Below are positions 3,001 to 58,064 of a stretch of DNA of 64,000 bases, piece by piece. The stretch covers positions 806,001 through 870,000 of the forward strand of contig NZ_JAFEWD010000001.1 of assembly GCF_017355855.1 (NCBI RefSeq). Direction: 5' to 3'. The position numbers were made by a program, and so were the translations under genes. Each line of letters starts with the position of its first letter. The first letter of the stretch is position 1. The notes beneath the pieces were generated by a model. That model had not been told where the DNA came from, made no database searches, and saw only the letters and a program-made list of their open reading frames with translations. Source of the DNA: Pedobacter sp. SYSU D00535 (GTDB lineage Bacteria; Bacteroidota; Bacteroidia; Sphingobacteriales; Sphingobacteriaceae).

Positions 3001-4025
3001 AACTACCTGTTAAAGACGGATGGGAAGTGATGGAAGAGCTCAAATCGAACACCGCTACCAGGCATATTCCTGTCCATATGATGTCATCACTGGAAATGAA
3101 GAAAGAAAGCTTGATTAAAGGGGCAGTTGACTTCATCAATAAGCCAATAGCGATTGAGCAAATGCAGGAAATGTTCAGGAAGTTGGAGGACGCCCTGAAC
3201 AGACATCCAAAAAAGGTACTGATTGTTGAGGAAAATCCTAAACACGCTCAGGCGCTTTCCTACTTCCTCAGCTCTTTCAACGTCATTTCAGAGATCAAAG
3301 GATCGGTAGATGAAGGCGTCGAAACGCTGATGAAAAAGGAGGTAGACTGTGTGATTTTGGATATGGGTATTCCAGATCATGCAGCTTACGAAACCCTTGA
3401 GGCTGTGAAGAAGAACAAAGGATTGGAAAACCTTCCGATCATCATCTTCACAGGGAAAAACCTTTCAAAAGCTGAAGAAGGCCGCCTAAAGCAATATGCC
3501 GATAGCATTGTAATGAAAACCGCTCACTCCTATCAGCGAATCCTCGACGAGGTGGCGTTGTTCTTACACCTTGTTGAGGAAAAGTCAGGGCCAGATACCC
3601 CAAATAGAGTAAAAAAGAACTTGCTGGCTTTGAGCGAAGTTTTGAAAAACAAAACGGTACTGGTAGCGGATGACGATGTTAGAAATATCTTTTCCCTCAC
3701 CAAAGCACTCGAGCAACATAAAATGAATGTTCTGTCTGCTACTGACGGGAAGGAGGCGCTGCGAATTTTGGACGAACATCCGGAGGTCGACATTGTATTA
3801 ATGGACATGATGATGCCGGAAATGGACGGCTACGAGACAACTTCAAAAATCAGACAGAATCCTAAATACAAAAATCTTCCGGTCCTTGCTGTTACTGCAA
3901 AGGCAATGATTGGAGACAGAGAAAAATGTATTAGGGCGGGAGCTTCAGACTACATTTCGAAACCGGTGGACGTAGATCAACTGATTTCATTACTAAGGGT
4001 TTGGTTGTACGATAAACATTTCTAG
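3..4025 (+). CDS. Hybrid sensor histidine kinase with three receiver domains (5' end cut by window)
   Basis: Membrane sensor kinase that autophosphorylates on His and passes phosphate through attached receivers. Counting from the TTG at base 12, the visible order is a membrane segment (about 5-25), an extracytoplasmic region with some likeness to NIT sensor domains (30-290), a second membrane segment (295-316), HAMP-like linker, GAF (about 425-575), long coiled coil (575-670), HisKA with the motif NMSHELRTPLN, HATPase_c with FGGTGLGLS, then three REC domains (about 960-1075, 1085-1200, 1215-1335). The middle REC has E-E instead of the usual acidic D-D and KT instead of KP, so it may be atypical. 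The frame stays open to the window edge, so the true start probably lies upstream and the TTG is not trusted. The response regulator, CheR and CheB genes follow within a few bases. Confidence 0.93.
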   Translation, partial: FNKLPFPVKLFLIGLIPTVFLIYFAFALVKEKTERLAVVESVQKTIHTNLAISALGNELIQERRTTFRYYLEEATEAELVTQRAKTDALIQGLKKELGQGFDSFANYTLLNQLSINRPLFLRKQLSVHQVINYYTNLLVRFNNSTNVSIENIPYLDRVSHELIGQRLMSELVNQFGTLRNQIFLFSYTRQSNQLDIEAIQRNHALVLSYWAEYQLKSPASSTMAFQRLENSEEAKYLNGVLDAISRTGKIPAEVDPNEWWRKSGIVLDKIANIQSNLMGEVQRITAQVAEEEEESLHRYLFFLAFILIITIVLIFYTTKNISDILLGLKENAERIARGATGTTHEVKTEDAIGSLSKSIRLIDVNNLHLAEAAAAIGQGNFNVSLTPRSNDDVLGNALLKMKEDLMELSRESNEKIWIQSGVSLLNESVIGEKAVETIAKDALNALVNFLSAEFGLFYVYQEGNFQYSAGYAVPVNHRVPTIIAPGETLLGQAAIHQQIKYFQKIPDDFVKISSGSGESKPQHLYVVPLLLNQSVEGIIEIGSIQPFPPSTLDLLEEVSRTLAITLHTAKNRARVQELLEETQAQAEELQAQHSELENINTELEVQSSKLQASEEELKVQQEELLQANQELEERSKMLEEKNQLIVERNLDIQKKAEELEQSTRYKSEFLANMSHELRTPLNSILLLSRLMAENVEENLTDDQIEYAKVIQSSGNGLLTLIDEILDLSKIEAGKMDLEFADTYIKDVTDDLRALFAPIAREKNLEFKINVIADVPGRIVTDKMRLEQILKNLISNALKFTPKGYVELRINPAQHPDYIQLSVKDTGIGIPEEKQEHIFEAFQQADGSTKRRFGGTGLGLSISRQLAKLLGGEIVLKSKAGEGSEFIVTIPVAPLAKPSQESVTTQTNWQQEVVEYPATPAPALPIRHIVPTVPQQVPDDRDQITETDKSILIIEDDTNFVKALMEFTRKSGYKCLVAVRGDDGIELAKTFKPRAILLDIQLPVKDGWEVMEELKSNTATRHIPVHMMSSLEMKKESLIKGAVDFINKPIAIEQMQEMFRKLEDALNRHPKKVLIVEENPKHAQALSYFLSSFNVISEIKGSVDEGVETLMKKEVDCVILDMGIPDHAAYETLEAVKKNKGLENLPIIIFTGKNLSKAEEGRLKQYADSIVMKTAHSYQRILDEVALFLHLVEEKSGPDTPNRVKKNLLALSEVLKNKTVLVADDDVRNIFSLTKALEQHKMNVLSATDGKEALRILDEHPEVDIVLMDMMMPEMDGYETTSKIRQNPKYKNLPVLAVTAKAMIGDREKCIRAGASDYISKPVDVDQLISLLRVWLYDKHF

Positions 4026-4030
4026 CAAAA

Positions 4031-4399
4031 ATGAAGCAAGTATTGATCATAGACGATGATCCGCGTAACATATTTGCGCTGAAAGCAGTATTGAAGTCGA
4101 AAGGCTACACCTGCGTTAGTGCCGGCTCTGCTCCGGCGGGGCTATCGATATTAGCGGCAGAATCAGATAAGATTGGCATTATTCTTATGGATATGATGAT
4201 GCCCGAAATGGATGGTTACGAAGCGCTGTCTCATATCAGGAATAACGGCAGTACCAGGGACGTCCCTGTTATAGCTGTTACAGCGCAGGCCATGGTGGGA
4301 GACAAAGAAAAATGTCTAAATGCCGGCGCTACTGATTATATGTCAAAGCCGATAAACCTGGATACTTTATTAGTAGTATTGGAAAAATATTTAAAATAA
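4031..4399 (+). CDS. Single-domain response regulator (CheY-like receiver)
   Basis: Stand-alone REC domain of 122 residues with the full active site: acidic pair in IIDDDPRN, phospho-acceptor Asp in ILMDMMMPEMDGYEA, conserved Thr/Ala in AVTAQA and Lys-Pro in MSKPINL. It has no output domain, so it must act by protein contact or as a phosphate shuttle. It begins 5 bases after the stop of the hybrid kinase and resembles that kinase's last REC domain, which suggests it arose by duplication and is its partner. The CheR gene follows after 3 bases, so all four genes are probably one transcript. The role is inferred from context. Confidence 0.93.
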   Translation: MKQVLIIDDDPRNIFALKAVLKSKGYTCVSAGSAPAGLSILAAESDKIGIILMDMMMPEMDGYEALSHIRNNGSTRDVPVIAVTAQAMVGDKEKCLNAGATDYMSKPINLDTLLVVLEKYLK

Positions 4400-4402
4400 A
4401 AA

Positions 4403-5227
4403 GTGGAATACACAGTTGTTCAAGACGAGGAAATTGATATCCTGTTACTAGATCTGTTGGAAAGGCATGGGTATGATTTTACTGATTATTCCAAGGCATC
4501 TTTAAAAAGGCGAATAAATCGGCTTTTTTCGCTTGATCGGTTTCCAAGCTTTGCGGAATTCAGATTCAGATTAAAAAACGACCCTACTTATATCCGGCGG
4601 TTCATTGAACAAATCACCGTTCCGGTTACGGAAATGTTTCGAGATCCCAACTTTTATAGGGCGTTACGAGAGGAAGTGCTGCCAACTCTGGGCACGTATC
4701 CCTTCATTCGCATTTGGCATGCCGGCTGTTCTACTGGAGAAGAGGTTTATTCGATGGCAATTCTCCTGAAGGAAGCAAACCTTTTTCATAAATCGCTGCT
4801 TTACGCTACCGACATCAATCCGGAAGTTTTGGAAAAAGCAAGAAAAGGTATATTCCCGCTGAGCCAAATGAAGCAATATTCTGAAAACTACATCCTTTCA
4901 GGGGGAAAAAACGATTTTTCATCTTATTACTCAGCGATTTATGACCATGCGAAGTTTGATGCCTCCCTTAATAGTAAGATGATTTTCTCCACGCACAACC
5001 TTGTATCAGACCGGTCTTTTAATGAGTTTCAGCTAATTCTCTGCCGAAATGTTCTTATTTATTTCGACCGGGACTTGCAGAGCCGTGTCTTCAAACTTTT
5101 TGACGATAGTCTCGATCATTTGGGCTTTTTAGCTCTTGGCTCCAAAGAAACTATCCGCTTTTCGGGCATAGCTTCTAAATACAAACAAGTTGGAGGAAAA
5201 GAAAAGATATGGCGGAAAACGGTGTAG
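4403..5227 (+). CDS. CheR-type protein-glutamate O-methyltransferase
   Basis: SAM-dependent methyltransferase of the CheR family, 274 residues, read from a GTG start 3 bases after the response regulator stop. An N-terminal helical CheR_N region (about 10-70) is followed by the catalytic domain. The SAM-binding segment reads WHAGCSTGEEVYS, the acidic turn is YATDINPEVLEKA, and the late motif is LCRNVLIYFD. In chemotaxis, CheR methylates receptor glutamates. No methyl-accepting chemoreceptor, CheA or CheW is present here, so the substrate is more likely the neighbouring hybrid kinase or an unlinked protein. The 3' end overlaps the CheB gene by 19 bases, implying translational coupling. Confidence 0.93.
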   Translation: MEYTVVQDEEIDILLLDLLERHGYDFTDYSKASLKRRINRLFSLDRFPSFAEFRFRLKNDPTYIRRFIEQITVPVTEMFRDPNFYRALREEVLPTLGTYPFIRIWHAGCSTGEEVYSMAILLKEANLFHKSLLYATDINPEVLEKARKGIFPLSQMKQYSENYILSGGKNDFSSYYSAIYDHAKFDASLNSKMIFSTHNLVSDRSFNEFQLILCRNVLIYFDRDLQSRVFKLFDDSLDHLGFLALGSKETIRFSGIASKYKQVGGKEKIWRKTV

Positions 5228-5820
5228 GATCTGGCATTGAGGCAGTAGTTATCGGCGGATCAGCCGGTAGCTTGAATGTAATATTGAATACCTTGCCCCT
5301 ATTAACAAGGCAACTAAAACTCAGCATCATTATTGTTCTGCATAGAAAAAGCTCGTACGACTCTTCCCTCGCTAACTTACTGGGAGGCAAAACAACACTT
5401 CCTGTTAAAGAAGCTGACGAAAAAGAACCAATCTTACCAGGGAAGATTTACCTCGCCCCTGCGGATTACCACTTGTTAATCGAGAAAGACAAAACCTTTT
5501 CCCTGGACTATTCGGAAAAAATCCACTACTCACGTCCGAGCCTTGATGCCACATTTCAAACAGCTGCTGAGGTATATAGAAGCGGCCTTGCCGGATTACT
5601 CCTTTCAGGAGCAAACTCTGACGGGGCTGAAGGTTTAAGATCGGTAAAAGCGAATGGAGGTTTAACAGCGATACAAGATCCGGAAGATGCGGAGGTTTCT
5701 TATATGCCAGATCAAGCTTTATCAAAAATGAAACCCGACTATCTTTTAAGTGCAAAAGAAATAGCCGGGTTTTTAAACGACTTATCCCAGGCCCGATCTA
5801 CTCGGAATAAAGGCTCTTAA
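5209..5820 (+). CDS. CheB-type methylesterase catalytic domain (no receiver)
   Basis: Stand-alone CheB C-terminal catalytic domain of 203 residues that would remove methyl esters (or deamidate Gln) on the CheR substrate. The Ser-His-Asp set is visible: Ser in IGGSAGS, His in IVLHRKSS and Asp in SGANSDGAEG. The N-terminal receiver domain of canonical CheB is absent, so control presumably comes from the adjacent response regulator or from expression. It overlaps the CheR gene by 19 bases. Its last 23 bases overlap the convergent lysA gene tail to tail, and there is no room for a separate terminator between them. Confidence 0.92.
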   Translation: MAENGVGSGIEAVVIGGSAGSLNVILNTLPLLTRQLKLSIIIVLHRKSSYDSSLANLLGGKTTLPVKEADEKEPILPGKIYLAPADYHLLIEKDKTFSLDYSEKIHYSRPSLDATFQTAAEVYRSGLAGLLLSGANSDGAEGLRSVKANGGLTAIQDPEDAEVSYMPDQALSKMKPDYLLSAKEIAGFLNDLSQARSTRNKGS

Positions 5821-53343: not shown

Positions 53344-53394
53344 AAGATTAATGGTCGCTGCGATAACCCTGGGCTGGGCGACCATTAATCTTTT
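53344..53394. terminator. 15-bp hairpin overlapping the DUF5519 gene end
   Basis: Arms AAGATTAATGGTCGC (53344-53358) and GCGACCATTAATCTT (53378-53392) with a 19-base loop, then TTTGTAAAT. It should end the phoD transcript on the plus strand. On the minus strand it covers the last 14 codons of the DUF5519 gene. Confidence 0.75.
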
Positions 53395-53797
53395 GTAAAT
53401 AGCTCCGCTTCAACAGACATAACGCATAAGGGATATCTTGCTTTGATCGAATGCCAAACGTTATCCAACCGGTGTTCACAAATACATGATGATCCTGGAT
53501 CCGTCCTTCTTCGCGCAATTGTTCCTTAATTTTGAAGCTGAAAAGAATATCCAATAGGCCGTTACTGTGAAGATGCCCTATTTCTTTATCAAGGTAATCA
53601 AACTGCAGTCCCCCGTATTTATGCGTCCTTGCGCTTATTCCCTCCCAACTCGTAACCTCCAACTCTATCTCATCCAGCATCGATAGCAGTTGGGGCCTAA
53701 GCAAAAAAAGCTGCAATTTTAATAATGCATCAAAGAATAAGGCTAATCCGGGAATTCCCTTGAGAAAGCCAAGCCACTTTACGGTAAAAGCAAACAC
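53348..53797 (-). CDS. DUF5519 (luciferase-like) family protein
   Basis: A 149-residue protein ending the GbsR-linked operon. It has a hydrophobic start (LPGLALFFDALLKLQLFLL) and a DUF5519 core: MLDEIELEVTSWEGISARTHKYGGLQF, then DYLDKEIGHLHSNGLLDILFSF and HHVFVNTGWITFGIRS with several His. The name 'luciferase' in this family is from weak similarity only. Its 1-base overlap with the upstream gene points to coupling. The last residues (KINGRPAQGYRSDH) lie within the terminator hairpin, so the natural end may once have been earlier. Confidence 0.8.
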   Translation of the reverse strand: MFAFTVKWLGFLKGIPGLALFFDALLKLQLFLLRPQLLSMLDEIELEVTSWEGISARTHKYGGLQFDYLDKEIGHLHSNGLLDILFSFKIKEQLREEGRIQDHHVFVNTGWITFGIRSKQDIPYALCLLKRSYLQKINGRPAQGYRSDH

Positions 53798-54708
53798 TAT
53801 TTTTTCTCGCTTAGGGACTTGATGTGGTCCATCACTCGTAAATGGACATTCCTGGTAATACTTTCCGCCCAGATATCATAGTACCAGAGCGGGAAGACGT
53901 ATAGTCGATACCAACTGTTTCCGGTCAGCGTAGTGGTTCCATCACCATTGTCCTTTAAAAGAAATTGTCCACGGAGAATGTCAATATGCCCCATAATCTC
54001 CGGATCCTTCGGCTGGCTGACAATGTCGAATGTTAAATCCCGCTCCCGGTTATATACCGCGATTCGTTCATCGAAAACATAACCATTACTAAAGATACAC
54101 TTCCTACCTGCTCCTTCTCGGTGACCCTCGACCGTGGCAGCTACAGGGCTCGGCATTCCGATCTGAAATAGCCAATACTTGTTTTCTTCATCGATCCGCT
54201 CGAACGCGACTACATGTTTCCAGACCTCTTTTGTAGGAGCATCGATGACGACGATGTCGGAAACCATGCGCTCATGCTGATGATCAGAGACCGAATCTGC
54301 AACAAAAAGAACCAAAAGCAGGGAAAGAACGCTCATATTTAGATTCTTGTTATCCCTTTTAAACATCGCTTTCCCGATAACAGTGCCGGTGATTACAAAA
54401 CCCAGAATCAGGGGCGAAACGATTAGGAGACAGATCATTCCTTCGCCTAAAAAAACTGAACTAAGGACAATGGCTAAGAGGCCGTTAACGCAAGACAAGC
54501 CCGTCAAGCTTCTACTTTTCAACTGCAGATCTCTCCAGCACCAGGTACTTATTATTCCCATCACCAGTGGAATAATAACAAACTCAGCATACACAAACAC
54601 CCCCGGATGCAATTCGAGATAGCGGGTAATTCCAATCAATACAAAAGCGAAAAGATTGGAAAGGAGAATCCCTTTAAGTACTTTAAAATTATAAATCTTG
54701 TTATTCAT
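53797..54708 (-). CDS. Membrane protein with C-terminal START/SRPBCC-like domain
   Basis: A 303-residue protein with about four N-terminal hydrophobic segments (to about residue 140), then a polyketide-cyclase-like SRPBCC domain with MVSDIVVIDAPTKEVWKHVVAFERID, IVSQPKDPEIMGHIDILRGQFLL and the closing helix ITRNVHLRVMDHIKSL. The domain should face the cytoplasm or periplasm and bind a hydrophobic ligand. It overlaps the upstream small membrane gene by 8 bases and the downstream DUF5519 gene by 1 base. I do not know a named family for this fusion. Confidence 0.85.
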   Translation of the reverse strand: MNNKIYNFKVLKGILLSNLFAFVLIGITRYLELHPGVFVYAEFVIIPLVMGIISTWCWRDLQLKSRSLTGLSCVNGLLAIVLSSVFLGEGMICLLIVSPLILGFVITGTVIGKAMFKRDNKNLNMSVLSLLLVLFVADSVSDHQHERMVSDIVVIDAPTKEVWKHVVAFERIDEENKYWLFQIGMPSPVAATVEGHREGAGRKCIFSNGYVFDERIAVYNRERDLTFDIVSQPKDPEIMGHIDILRGQFLLKDNGDGTTTLTGNSWYRLYVFPLWYYDIWAESITRNVHLRVMDHIKSLSEKK

Positions 54709-55165
54709 ATTTTTTTGATAAGGTATTAAAGTGGATGACTTCTAACTTCTTGATATGGCTGTGGCAGATATAAAGCGGGATCATCCCAAACAAGCCGAAT
54801 GAGCAGTCAATTAGCTGCCAGAAAAATGGGATTTCTCTAATCCTTCCAGCGATAAAGGCAAGGGGGATAACCATCGCACAGGCAATCATCCCAAATTGAA
54901 CGACCCAGATATTCCGAACAGGATCACGAAGGGGACCAATAAAGGCCGTAGCGATGACGATATGAGCAAAGGCCAGCCAGTCTGTTCCGTAAGCGAGGTA
55001 AGGAAACCGATCGTTGGTAGTTTTGACGGCCGTGTAAATGGTATCGAACCAATTGGCCAGGGATAAAGGAAAGAAATCTTTTAACTGCACAGCTATGGCC
55101 AGCTGGCTCTCAATTGGGAAGGCAGTAATTCCACTCAGGATAAGGGCTGTAATAAAGAAGATCAT
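54701..55165 (-). CDS. Small integral membrane protein of the GbsR-linked operon
   Basis: A 154-residue membrane protein with about four hydrophobic segments and the motif SGITAFPIESQLA after the first. The ATG used (base 55165) follows directly on an in-frame TAG (55166-55168). Upstream of that TAG, 14 codons beginning MKTEEAQLKSKIRR are in the same frame and start 12 bases after the previous gene. The longer form looks like a natural N terminus cut by an amber codon. With the ATG after the TAG, translation may still work, helped by AGGAG just upstream. Function unknown. Confidence 0.75.
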   Translation of the reverse strand: MIFFITALILSGITAFPIESQLAIAVQLKDFFPLSLANWFDTIYTAVKTTNDRFPYLAYGTDWLAFAHIVIATAFIGPLRDPVRNIWVVQFGMIACAMVIPLAFIAGRIREIPFFWQLIDCSFGLFGMIPLYICHSHIKKLEVIHFNTLSKKYE

Positions 55166-55222
55166 CTATCTCCTGATTTTACTTTTTAGTTGTGCTTCTT
55201 CGGTTTTCATTGTTGAGTTTTT

Positions 55223-55678
55223 TTAGGTTGGCAATTCTGCTTTTTGTTTAATTACTGCGTTTCTGTGTAGGATGAGCTTTCGCATATACTTTTCCAGAAA
55301 GACCAGGTCGGCCAAACAGCCAAGTATCCCAAGAGGCGACTCATACGCAAACTCATCTATCATCAACGTAAATGCACCCCTTTCCGCGAAGAAATGCCGG
55401 TGGATCAGGCTTTTAAAGGGCCCTTCCAGCATTTCATCACAAAAAAGTACAGGAAACTCGCAGATAGTAATTTTGCTGATCAACTTCATTTTGATTCCGA
55501 AATGCCTTGCTTCCCAGGTCACCGTTTCTCCCAGTCCAATCAGTCCGCTGGTGACGCCGGCAATAGCCTTCTCTTCGCTATGCTGCATGGTCTCCAGGTG
55601 AAGGTCGATGCTTCTGGCAAGATCAAAGCAGTGTGCAGCAGGGGCTTTAATTCGGGTAGTTAAGATAAATCGGGGCAT
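55223..55678 (-). CDS. SRPBCC/START-like protein
   Basis: A 151-residue soluble protein of the SRPBCC superfamily: start RFILTTRIKAPAAHCFDLARSIDLHL, then GLIGLGETVTWEARHFGIKMKLISKI and EGAFT-like strands before a final RKLILHRNAVIK helix. Members in Bacteroidota are often called 'cell division inhibitor' without evidence. It begins 1 base after the stop of the TIGR01777 epimerase, so the two are co-translated. It should bind a hydrophobic ligand, unknown. Confidence 0.88.
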   Translation of the reverse strand: MPRFILTTRIKAPAAHCFDLARSIDLHLETMQHSEEKAIAGVTSGLIGLGETVTWEARHFGIKMKLISKITICEFPVLFCDEMLEGPFKSLIHRHFFAERGAFTLMIDEFAYESPLGILGCLADLVFLEKYMRKLILHRNAVIKQKAELPT

Positions 55679-55679
55679 A

Positions 55680-56606
55680 TCAAATTCGGGTACTTAGAAT
55701 GTCTTTAATAGCAAAACCTGCTGTAGGGAAAGAGAAAGTAAAACCATCGTCGATCAGTCGCTTGGGTAAAACCCACCTGCTCTTAAGGATCAGTTCCGTC
55801 TCCGTCCCGATAAGCCTTGCTCCAATTTCTAATAGCCAGGCAGGAGCAGGTAAGCCAAAGGGGATCCCGTAGGCGCTGCGAAGGGGATCCATCAATTCGT
55901 CGTTTTTCAGAGGTTCCGGAGCAGTACAGTTGATCACCCCCTCTAATTCCCGTTGACCGATCAGCCACTCCGTACACCTGGCAACATCTTGCTCATGAAT
56001 CCAGGAAACATATTGTTTGCCGTCTCCCTGCTTTCCCCCCAGACCCAGCTTAACGAGGTTCAATAGGCGCGGAAACACCCCATCTTTTTGTCCCAATACA
56101 ATTCCCATACGCAATGCAATTTTCCTGGTTTGAGGAGTATGGCTGTTGAAGAACGTTTCTTCCCATTGGCGACAAACATCTACGGAAAATCCATAGCCTG
56201 CTTCACCGCTTTCCTCGTCCTGCGGCCAGTCTTCAGCATGCCGGTAAATGGTGGCGGAAGTCACGTTGATCCAGAGTTGCGGAGGCTGTTTCATCTTTCC
56301 GATGACCCTGCCCAACAGCTGAGTCGGATCTACCCGGGATTGAATAATAGCTGCCCTGTTACGGCTGTTATAGCGGCAGTTGACGTTCTTTCCGCAAAGG
56401 TTCACAAGAAGCTCCGCGTCATCCAGGCTTTCGCACCATTTTCCTTCTGTTCTAGCATCCCATACTAGCGTCCGTATGTTATGATCTGCAGGTGCTGGTT
56501 TACGACTCAAAATAATCACCTCCTTTGCCAAAGGCTTGAAATGGTTAGCTAACACGCCACCCGGGTAGCCGCTACCTCCGGCAAGTATGATCTTTTCGTA
56601 TTTCAT
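55680..56606 (-). CDS. TIGR01777-family (SDR39U1-like) epimerase
   Basis: A 308-residue extended SDR with an N-terminal NAD(P) loop (IILAGGSGYPGGVLANHF), LVNLCGKNVNCRYNSRNR, INVTSATIYRH and DEESGEAGYGFSVDVCRQWEE. The last 60 residues form the usual DUF1731 C-terminal domain. The reaction is unknown, but relatives are proposed to act on nucleotide sugars or cyclic lipids. It is a middle gene of the GbsR-linked operon. Confidence 0.92.
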   Translation of the reverse strand: MKYEKIILAGGSGYPGGVLANHFKPLAKEVIILSRKPAPADHNIRTLVWDARTEGKWCESLDDAELLVNLCGKNVNCRYNSRNRAAIIQSRVDPTQLLGRVIGKMKQPPQLWINVTSATIYRHAEDWPQDEESGEAGYGFSVDVCRQWEETFFNSHTPQTRKIALRMGIVLGQKDGVFPRLLNLVKLGLGGKQGDGKQYVSWIHEQDVARCTEWLIGQRELEGVINCTAPEPLKNDELMDPLRSAYGIPFGLPAPAWLLEIGARLIGTETELILKSRWVLPKRLIDDGFTFSFPTAGFAIKDILSTRI

Positions 56607-56615
56607 AACAGGTAA

Positions 56616-57431
56616 CTAAAGGATAAATAAAAGCACAAGAATTCGATATAAGACCCAGCTGGCACTAAGTGTCCAGCCAAGCTGCAGCAGCCTCGTCCTT
56701 CGGATATGCTCCAGCAGCATAGCTCCGGCTATCGCCAAAAACCATGCGGCGTAGAACCCGGCGGGAAGATGAAGCCAATTGGCCTTAAACACCGCCGGCA
56801 ATAACAGGAGCGCCCCTGCCAGCGAGATGGACATCATATTTCCGAGGTAATCCCAGCGTTTACTCCTGTCAATAAGTCCAATGATTGCTCCCTGAAAAAA
56901 TACCTGGCCTCCGCATATCAGGTATTCCATCACCGCACTTCCTGCTGGGGCCAGTCCCTTTAACAATGGCGAGTAAGCAGAATGAATACTGGCAGTAATA
57001 AACCAGCTAAAAATCAGGTAAGCTATCCGATACTCTAATCTCAAGGAGGGCTGGATTTGAAAGGTCCCGGTGGCGAGAGGTGCTGGAATGATCACCCGTC
57101 TGTTGAAAGATATAAAAGCGTAGAGCTTCGTCATCCCCCAAACGAAAGGCTTAAAGAGAAATAAGGGCTTTAACACAGGAAAAGATGAAGCAAAAACTTT
57201 GAAAAGGCTTTGTATGCCATAACTTACCTCTCCGCTTTCCAAGCTTACAAGCGCTATCTCGTTTGCTGCCCGCTGCCTGTCAACCATAGGACAAGCTTGT
57301 TCTGTAAGGTCCTGGTAAGGCGCTCTCCCGTCTGGGTCTAGCATGCCTCCTTTTACCATTGCCTCCGTGTACAACCGGCACATCGGGCAATCCGCATCGA
57401 AAAGGATAAGGTGATTTTTTAACCTGCTCAT
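56616..57431 (-). CDS. DCC/DUF393-type thiol protein with membrane segments
   Basis: A 271-residue protein. The first 110 residues form a DUF393/DCC thiol-oxidoreductase-like domain with the signature FDADCPMCRLYTEAM. About four hydrophobic segments follow (from 130). The Cys-x-x-Cys could take part in thiol-disulfide exchange at the membrane. It is the first gene of the operon and its promoter region carries a TTTCA-N8-TGAAA inverted repeat. The fused membrane domain has no name I recognise. Confidence 0.87.
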   Translation of the reverse strand: MSRLKNHLILFDADCPMCRLYTEAMVKGGMLDPDGRAPYQDLTEQACPMVDRQRAANEIALVSLESGEVSYGIQSLFKVFASSFPVLKPLFLFKPFVWGMTKLYAFISFNRRVIIPAPLATGTFQIQPSLRLEYRIAYLIFSWFITASIHSAYSPLLKGLAPAGSAVMEYLICGGQVFFQGAIIGLIDRSKRWDYLGNMMSISLAGALLLLPAVFKANWLHLPAGFYAAWFLAIAGAMLLEHIRRTRLLQLGWTLSASWVLYRILVLLFIL

Positions 57432-57461
57432 AGCTTGTTGTTCTTCTTTTATTATTCCTGA

Positions 57462-57483
57462 ATTTTCAGAAAATATTGAAAAT
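57462..57483. promoter_or_regulatory. Operator-like inverted repeat before the six-gene operon
   Basis: ATTTTCA (57462-57468) and TGAAAAT (57477-57483), spaced by 8 A/T bases. The core TTTCA-N8-TGAAA is the same as in the gbsR promoter repeat, spacing included. It lies about 30 bases before the DCC gene start. Confidence 0.65.
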
Positions 57484-57501
57484 ACTACTCAAAAAAATAT
57501 T

Positions 57502-58008
57502 CTATTTGAATATTTTAAATAAGGAGCCCCAGAACCAGTTCTCTTCGGCTTTCAGCATGGTATCTAAGGTCTTGTCGACATTCTTTGCCAGCATATTGAT
57601 ATCCGTTACTGATTTGTTAAAAGTTTTGTATTCCGGGTCATTTACATCTCCATCTACCTTCGATAGCTCGTCCAGCACCTTCAATACTGGATCTAGTTCT
57701 CTCTTCCTACGCTCTTTCGCCACTTGCCGGGCAATGTTCCATGTATCCTTGTCCGCGTAGAAATATTCCTTCCGTTCACCTGCTTTATGTTGCTTCTCTA
57801 CCAGTCCCCAGCCAATAAGATCTCTTAAAGTCATGTTGGCATTTCCTCTGGAGATGCTCAGCGCTTCCATAATCTCTTCTGTGGTAAGAGCCTCGGGTGA
57901 TATCAATAGCAGTGCATGCACCTGTGCCATAGTGCGGTTTATCCCCCACTCTGATCCTAACTTACCCCAAGCCTCTATGAATTTTTGTTTTGCTTCTGCT
58001 AACTCCAT
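57502..58008 (-). CDS. GbsR/MarR-type transcriptional regulator
   Basis: A 168-residue regulator with a winged helix: FIEAWGKLGSEWGINRTMAQVHALLLISPEALTTEEIMEALSISRGNANMTLRDLIGWGLVEKQHKAGERKEYFYADK. The last 70 residues form a helical dimerisation part. The DNA-reading helix sits in SISRGNANMTLRDLI. Its promoter overlaps a 16-bp inverted repeat, so autoregulation is likely, and a matching repeat before the downstream operon suggests the same control there. GbsR proteins elsewhere sense choline or osmolytes. The ligand here is unknown. Confidence 0.9.
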   Translation of the reverse strand: MELAEAKQKFIEAWGKLGSEWGINRTMAQVHALLLISPEALTTEEIMEALSISRGNANMTLRDLIGWGLVEKQHKAGERKEYFYADKDTWNIARQVAKERRKRELDPVLKVLDELSKVDGDVNDPEYKTFNKSVTDINMLAKNVDKTLDTMLKAEENWFWGSLFKIFK

Positions 58009-58012
58009 GCAA

Positions 58013-58064
58013 CAAACCTATGAAAAGTTATTAAACTTTCAAAATATATTGAAAGTTTAATAAC
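58013..58064 (-). promoter_or_regulatory. gbsR promoter with overlapping 16-bp operator
   Basis: On the minus strand a -33 TTTG (58040-58043) is 19 bases from TAGGTTTG (58013-58020), the expected Bacteroidota spacing, and the ATG follows after 4 bases. A perfect 16-base inverted repeat (58027-58042 and 58049-58064, 6-base spacer) lies over the -33 element. Its inner half-sites give TTTCA-N8-TGAAA. Confidence 0.85.

Follow-up and report, generated by a model that had tools for sequence, protein, structure and literature searches.

A GbsR-type regulator and its conserved operator at a candidate membrane redox/lipid module in Pedobacter and other Bacteroidia

What does a GbsR-type regulator control in Pedobacter? 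In Pedobacter sp. SYSU D00535, a 64,000-nucleotide stretch (contig NZ_JAFEWD010000001.1, positions 806,001 to 870,000; the whole of it was analysed and is called the window here) carries a tandem array of seven minus-strand genes. Behind gbsR, the first, come the genes of a DCC-membrane protein and a TIGR01777 oxidoreductase, then those of a soluble protein that was read as SRPBCC, of a small membrane protein, of a membrane-SRPBCC protein and of a DUF5519 or luciferase-domain protein ("luciferase" is a family name only and implies no activity). A preliminary description of this DNA proposed that GbsR is tied to the operon behind it by a shared operator, TTTCA-N8-TGAAA. The proposal survives the refuting conditions set in that description: with very few exceptions, such repeats precede the homologues of gbsR and DCC, and the order gbsR-DCC-TIGR01777 is conserved. 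Judged by this comparison, the link between regulator and operator is almost certain. On balance, we favor an autoregulated GbsR repressor regulon that would drive a membrane redox or lipid module.

A shared operator at gbsR and the DCC operon

The gbsR promoter holds an inverted repeat with perfect 16-nt arms, GTTATTAAACTTTCAA and TTGAAAGTTTAATAAC, separated by 6 nt; a repeat search on the same palindrome reports 19-nt arms at 95%. A second repeat lies before the DCC gene, and the two have TTTCA-N8-TGAAA in common, just as described earlier. The exact motif occurs at these two sites in the window, compared to a mean of 0.26 after shuffling. Because 3 of 100 shuffles also reach two, this count is only suggestive by itself, and it is the comparative data that settle the matter. 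Genome-wide, an AT-rich form of the motif is found in two places, both at this locus, and its reversed control in none. Without the AT-rich core, the exact motif is uninformative at this scale (12 places versus 11 for the reversed control).

Promoters in Bacteroidota combine a -7 box, TAnnTTTG, with a -33 box. At gbsR, the minus-strand TTG of the right arm of operator 1 (58040-58042) occupies the expected place of the -33 box. This geometry recurs in relatives: TAnnTTTG begins 33-35 nt after the operator start in 55/57 gbsR promoters of Sphingobacteriaceae and in 35/47 across the class. An operator placed over the -33 box is in a typical position for a repressor site.

Conservation of operator and regulator across Bacteroidia

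Searching with a DCC protein profile gave 80 named loci, mostly from Pedobacter and Mucilaginibacter. The gbsR gene adjoins in 58 of them, and the operator lies upstream of it in 57, at a distance of 44-47 bp; the single miss is at a contig end. The gap between gbsR and DCC contains the operator in 51/58 loci; in the 22 loci where gbsR is not adjacent, it always lies upstream of DCC. In the 1.25 Mb of sequence that these loci comprise, 139 of 145 motif matches fall at gbsR or DCC promoters. GbsR identity is 79-95% where DCC identity is 53-70%.

The gene set is less uniform. The order gbsR-DCC-TIGR01777 is kept, with TIGR01777 next to DCC in 79/80 loci, and from this comparison we take the core to be gbsR, the DCC-membrane protein and the TIGR01777 reductase. 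The six-gene set of the preliminary description is not fixed: the other four genes are optional (SRPBCC in 23 of the 80 loci, membrane-SRPBCC in 20, luciferase-domain in 16 and small membrane protein in 13), and it is complete in only four loci, namely the window, L040, L042 and L052. Wherever it occurs, the luciferase-domain gene comes after membrane-SRPBCC.

The operator also follows regulator and targets when they separate. Genome searches for 18 loci lacking an adjacent gbsR located one gbsR elsewhere in 17; the genome without one is a 3.5-Mb metagenome bin. The operator stands at about -44 in 13 of these 17 distant genes (10 detected by script, and 3 more where the ORF call starts at an earlier ATG and just takes in the site). 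In genome G365, a membrane-SRPBCC and luciferase-domain pair no longer lies near gbsR but retains the operator (L227, L252); in another (G015), gbsR and DCC are on different contigs and each has it. Lone DCC and lone TIGR01777 genes elsewhere carry it as well. Among 81 genomes of the window's family, 19 have both gbsR and the motif, 3 gbsR only, 6 the motif only and 53 neither (p 1e-10). Such p-values overstate independence because genomes share descent, and conservation across the class is the stronger argument. One genome (G001) has, about 91 kb from its intact gbsR, a second, degraded fragment with three stop codons (G001:C19:394068-394316).

Orthologues of gbsR occur in 99/295 sampled Bacteroidia genomes. 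At 60 loci from across the class, with protein identities of 44-63%, the site lies upstream of gbsR in 50, mostly at -46, and at least one module gene lies downstream in 45; operator and module genes co-occur (both, operator only, module gene only, neither: 43/7/2/8; Fisher p 9e-5). Downstream of gbsR, the families that recur are DCC, TIGR01777, SRPBCC, paired small membrane proteins, DUF2071 and a second SDR, and further SAM methyltransferase, desaturase, MBOAT_2, membrane-SRPBCC and luciferase-domain. Pairs of approximately 120-aa membrane proteins that lack a Pfam model (L243 3227-4038, L247 5521-6248; L150-type) are among the commonest gbsR partners outside the window's family. Inside one gbsR operon, a phospholipid-methyltransferase (PEMT) domain is fused to a DCC domain (L183 6935-8227).

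In one other family, 64/99 genomes contain the motif, far above the reversed control. There, 14 genomes have a type II NADH dehydrogenase gene immediately after the operator (G259, G308, G378, G379, G387, G413, G417, G420, G421, G422, G425, G432, G445 and G453; Pyr_redox_2 and NDH2_C domains were confirmed in the two checked), and two genomes have desaturases in this position. Perfect operator palindromes also precede a MenA-like UbiA pair (L238 2234-3990) and a polyprenyl synthase (L206 5582-6538) in genome G184; as single-genome cases, these sites may be chance matches. Some matches away from gbsR in single genomes (for example L233, L238, L239 and L245) were for this reason excluded from the core evidence.

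A counterpart of the operator has been footprinted. In Alishewanella sp. WH16-1, the GbsR-type protein CydE represses cytochrome bd, and its DNase footprint covers TATTTCAGAAATTTCTGAAAGTTCA (PMC6096048). This footprint contains TTTCA-GAAATTTC-TGAAA, the same motif as in the window; biochemical work in a different phylum has thus arrived at it independently. The two systems share a GbsR-type protein, an autoregulatory gene position and the motif. However, CydE controls cydAB (PMC6096048), whereas the targets here are DCC, TIGR01777, SRPBCC and luciferase-domain genes. No cytochrome bd gene lies in the window operon or was recognized among the recurrent families of relatives, and the genome has no operator elsewhere. 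CioR of Chromobacterium violaceum is a GbsR-type direct repressor of the operon containing its own gene; it loses DNA binding with Zn or Fe, and the operon responds to cyanide (PMC11837568). Its targets are likewise cytochrome bd genes, unlike those of the window, and the searched text gives no operator sequence (PMC11837568). The target set here is new, but this kind of GbsR/CydE regulon and its operator are already known (PMC6096048). Literature on TIGR01777 operons, DCC proteins and GbsR in Flavobacterium yielded nothing on this gene set.

The genes and their products

Coordinates are collected in the table. The genes overlap or nearly touch, in agreement with the preliminary description: the gaps are 70 nt (gbsR-DCC), 9 nt (DCC-TIGR01777), 1 nt (TIGR01777-SRPBCC) and 57 nt (SRPBCC-small membrane), and the last two junctions overlap by 8 nt (small membrane/membrane-SRPBCC) and 1 nt (membrane-SRPBCC/luciferase-domain). 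A convergent gene for a PhoD-like phosphatase follows. The hairpin at the end of the operon spans the stop codon and final codons of the luciferase-domain gene and is probably the terminator between operon and phoD.

Table. Features of the gbsR locus (positions in the window)
Feature	Position	Strand	Remarks
Operator 1	58027..58064	none	extended palindrome, gbsR promoter; core TTTCA-N8-TGAAA 58037-58054
-7 box	58013..58020	-	TAGGTTTG (TAnnTTTG, Bacteroidota type), 33-34 nt from operator 1 start
gbsR	57502..58008	-	predicted GbsR/CydE-type MarR-fold autorepressor, 168 aa; C-terminal ENWFWGSLFKIFK tail; no cysteine
Operator 2	57464..57481	none	TTTCA-N8-TGAAA, gbsR-DCC gap, 33-50 nt upstream of DCC start codon
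DCC	56616..57431	-	DUF393-like; N-terminal thioredoxin/GST-N-like domain with invariant CPxC, then several long helices, mostly membrane
TIGR01777	55680..56606	-	SDR oxidoreductase (SDR39U1/SulA-like), DUF1731 C-terminus
SRPBCC-read	55223..55678	-	soluble, 151 aa; earlier read as SRPBCC; adjoins TIGR01777 in relatives too
Small membrane	54701..55165	-	154 aa; family without Pfam or NCBIfam model
Membrane-SRPBCC	53797..54708	-	START-like, 303 aa
Luciferase-domain	53348..53797	-	PF17648 (DUF5519), predicted YjbR-like fold; invariant H59, H75, H77, H103, H104
Hairpin	53344..53392	none	15-bp stem, z -3.3; probable terminator

GbsR scores 32.3 bits against MarR_2 (cut-off 27), exceeds the TrmB cut-off as well, and has MJ223 (1ku9) as its nearest solved structure in a PDB sequence search (E 7.8e-18, residues 3-151). 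The window GbsR contains no cysteine, which makes thiol sensing by it unlikely, and 61 of 67 aligned sequences have none either. An ADENWFxxxxxKLxK-type C-terminal tail (window 57502-57545) is conserved across the class, and this aromatic tail could be an amphipathic helix that senses membrane or ligand.

The family names of the preliminary description hold up against Pfam and NCBIfam scores, with two reservations. One is that the DCC and membrane-SRPBCC proteins have significant matches below the gathering cut-offs: 23.0 bits (E 2e-4) versus 27.8 for DCC1-like (PF04134, DUF393), and 21.5 versus 27.4 bits for Polyketide_cyc2. By these scores we regard the DCC protein as a divergent relative of PF04134, not a formal member. 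The other is that neither the 151-aa SRPBCC-read protein nor the 154-aa small membrane protein has a Pfam match by itself. In the DCC protein, C15-P16-x-C18 is invariant in 38 homologues, and residues 5-121 of a model (pLDDT 82.6) align weakly with GST/MglA-type N-terminal domains (Z about 4.5-4.8).

The TIGR01777 protein scores 249.8 bits (NCBIfam cut-off 207) and 42.9 for DUF1731 (cut-off 27), and TIGR01777/SDR39U1/SulA-like oxidoreductases (PDB 4b4o, 3oh8) are clear sequence relatives. PF17648 matches the luciferase-domain protein with 62.1 bits (cut-off 23.7), and this protein has a C-terminal extension relative to its homologues. We know of no function for the TIGR01777/SDR39U1/SulA-like relatives. 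The model of the luciferase-domain protein resembles YjbR/DUF419 (PDB 2a1v, 2fki; Z 10.3, 105 residues, 3.2 Å), but at 14% identity the fold is all that they share. A PDB sequence search with DCC, membrane-SRPBCC and luciferase-domain profiles returned no relative, its two weak matches being to bS6 (E 0.03), and the fungal luciferase literature offered no bacterial homologue with a function.

Some neighbors recur beyond the operon. In several Mucilaginibacter loci (L069, L078, L086, L095), the gene immediately upstream of gbsR is photolyase-related (DPRP), and in L032 a photolyase-like 503-aa ORF (3845-5356) takes this place. An HbpS-like gene is often found next to gbsR or behind the luciferase-domain gene.

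Repression, signal and chemistry

Given the conservation of the operator, its overlap with the -33 box and the match to the CydE footprint, the locus is most likely an autoregulated repressor regulon of the GbsR/CydE type. GbsR would occupy TTTCA-N8-TGAAA at two places, across the -33 region of the gbsR promoter and ahead of the operon, and presumably keep both repressed. We infer with considerable confidence that it represses rather than activates. A cell signal, probably membrane or respiratory redox stress, would then release it. Once made, the DCC protein might handle thiols, disulfides or electrons with a thioredoxin-fold domain anchored by membrane helices, and the TIGR01777 protein would act as an NAD(P)-dependent reductase. 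The START-like proteins may bind or carry a hydrophobic substrate, and the luciferase-domain protein would join them in the module. Together, they may act on a lipid, isoprenoid or quinone embedded in the membrane, either modifying or protecting it. This function is suggested by the families found under the operator, and we propose it tentatively, as somewhat doubtful; a hydrophobic or thiol-bearing molecule near the membrane, the substrate first proposed, is compatible with the family set.

Several observations weigh against this scheme. Support for operator binding by GbsR in Bacteroidota comes from sequence comparison, and several Pedobacter gbsR genes (L311-L314) have lost the exact operator at their own promoter. 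Most relatives do not have a -7 box at the same spacing from operator 2. In seven of the class loci, the site is present with no recognized module gene. The membrane part of the DCC model matches generic helical bundles only (best Z 6.8), and neither do the protein features name a reaction nor the families a pathway product.

Could the palindrome instead serve another transcription factor or be a mere promoter element? Its overlap with the -33 box of the gbsR promoter would fit, but the site is palindromic, occurs also where no -7 box follows, tracks gbsR across genomes with the co-occurrence given above, and has the sequence footprinted for CydE, all of which makes this very improbable. We reject an osmostress regulator answering choline or glycine betaine, to which we give next to no credence, because no osmoprotectant gene was found: among approximately 140 loci, we recognized no gene for betaine synthesis or uptake. 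The window GbsR does share its family and AT-rich palindromic operators with Bacillus GbsR, OpuAR and OpcR, which differ in their choline/betaine signal and osmoprotectant targets (PMC7396694, PMC6207618). Its CudC match is weak (45 bits versus a cut-off of 218), the half-sites of the Bacillus GbsR operator are 4 bp apart (PMC7396694), and Ronzheimer et al. report the aromatic cage as absent outside the osmostress group (PMC6207618). An operon for light or photo-oxidative stress is suggested by the DPRP and photolyase-like genes near gbsR, but these have no preceding operator and are absent from most loci, the window included, so we consider it improbable.

Two further proposals concern signal and chemistry, and each is a possibility to be taken seriously, if an unlikely one. 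As with CydE and CioR, the signal could be inhibition of respiration or metal or sulfur stress (sulfate, sulfide, cyanide, zinc, iron), with the module keeping the respiratory membrane working. The operator has the same sequence as the CydE footprint, CioR offers the precedent of metal and cyanide responses, and one Bacteroidia family has type II NADH dehydrogenase among its conserved targets. Yet none of the genes seen under the operator encodes cytochrome bd, and the NADH dehydrogenase target is confined to that family and absent from this genome, which has the two local sites only. Alternatively, the genes could form a small biosynthetic cluster for a specialized membrane lipid or isoprenoid, with GbsR sensing the product or a precursor. 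Desaturases, MBOAT_2 acyltransferase, the phospholipid-methyltransferase-DCC fusion, SAM methyltransferase, polyprenyl synthase and MenA-like UbiA vary under the operator in a way that would suit such a cluster; but its core enzymes, DCC and TIGR01777, point to no product, a polyketide or fatty-acid synthase core is absent, and the polyprenyl synthase and UbiA come from one genome and are possibly chance motif matches.

For the autoregulated GbsR regulon that we favor, a more speculative and rather doubtful extension is that, across Bacteroidia, it builds or repairs a novel membrane lipid or quinone-like molecule. Its core enzymes would be DCC and TIGR01777 and its carriers START-like proteins; desaturases, acyltransferases, methyltransferases and NADH dehydrogenases, differing between lineages, would be recruited through the same operator. 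A 2018 survey of the GbsR family found that gene neighborhoods give no consistent picture for the Bacteroidetes group (PMC6207618). The operator supplies a consistent gene context for this unplaced branch and links the GbsR proteins of Bacteroidia with the CydE regulators of Proteobacteria. One regulon now joins the DCC-membrane, TIGR01777, DUF2071, SRPBCC and luciferase-domain families, all of unassigned function, and the function of the module becomes directly testable.

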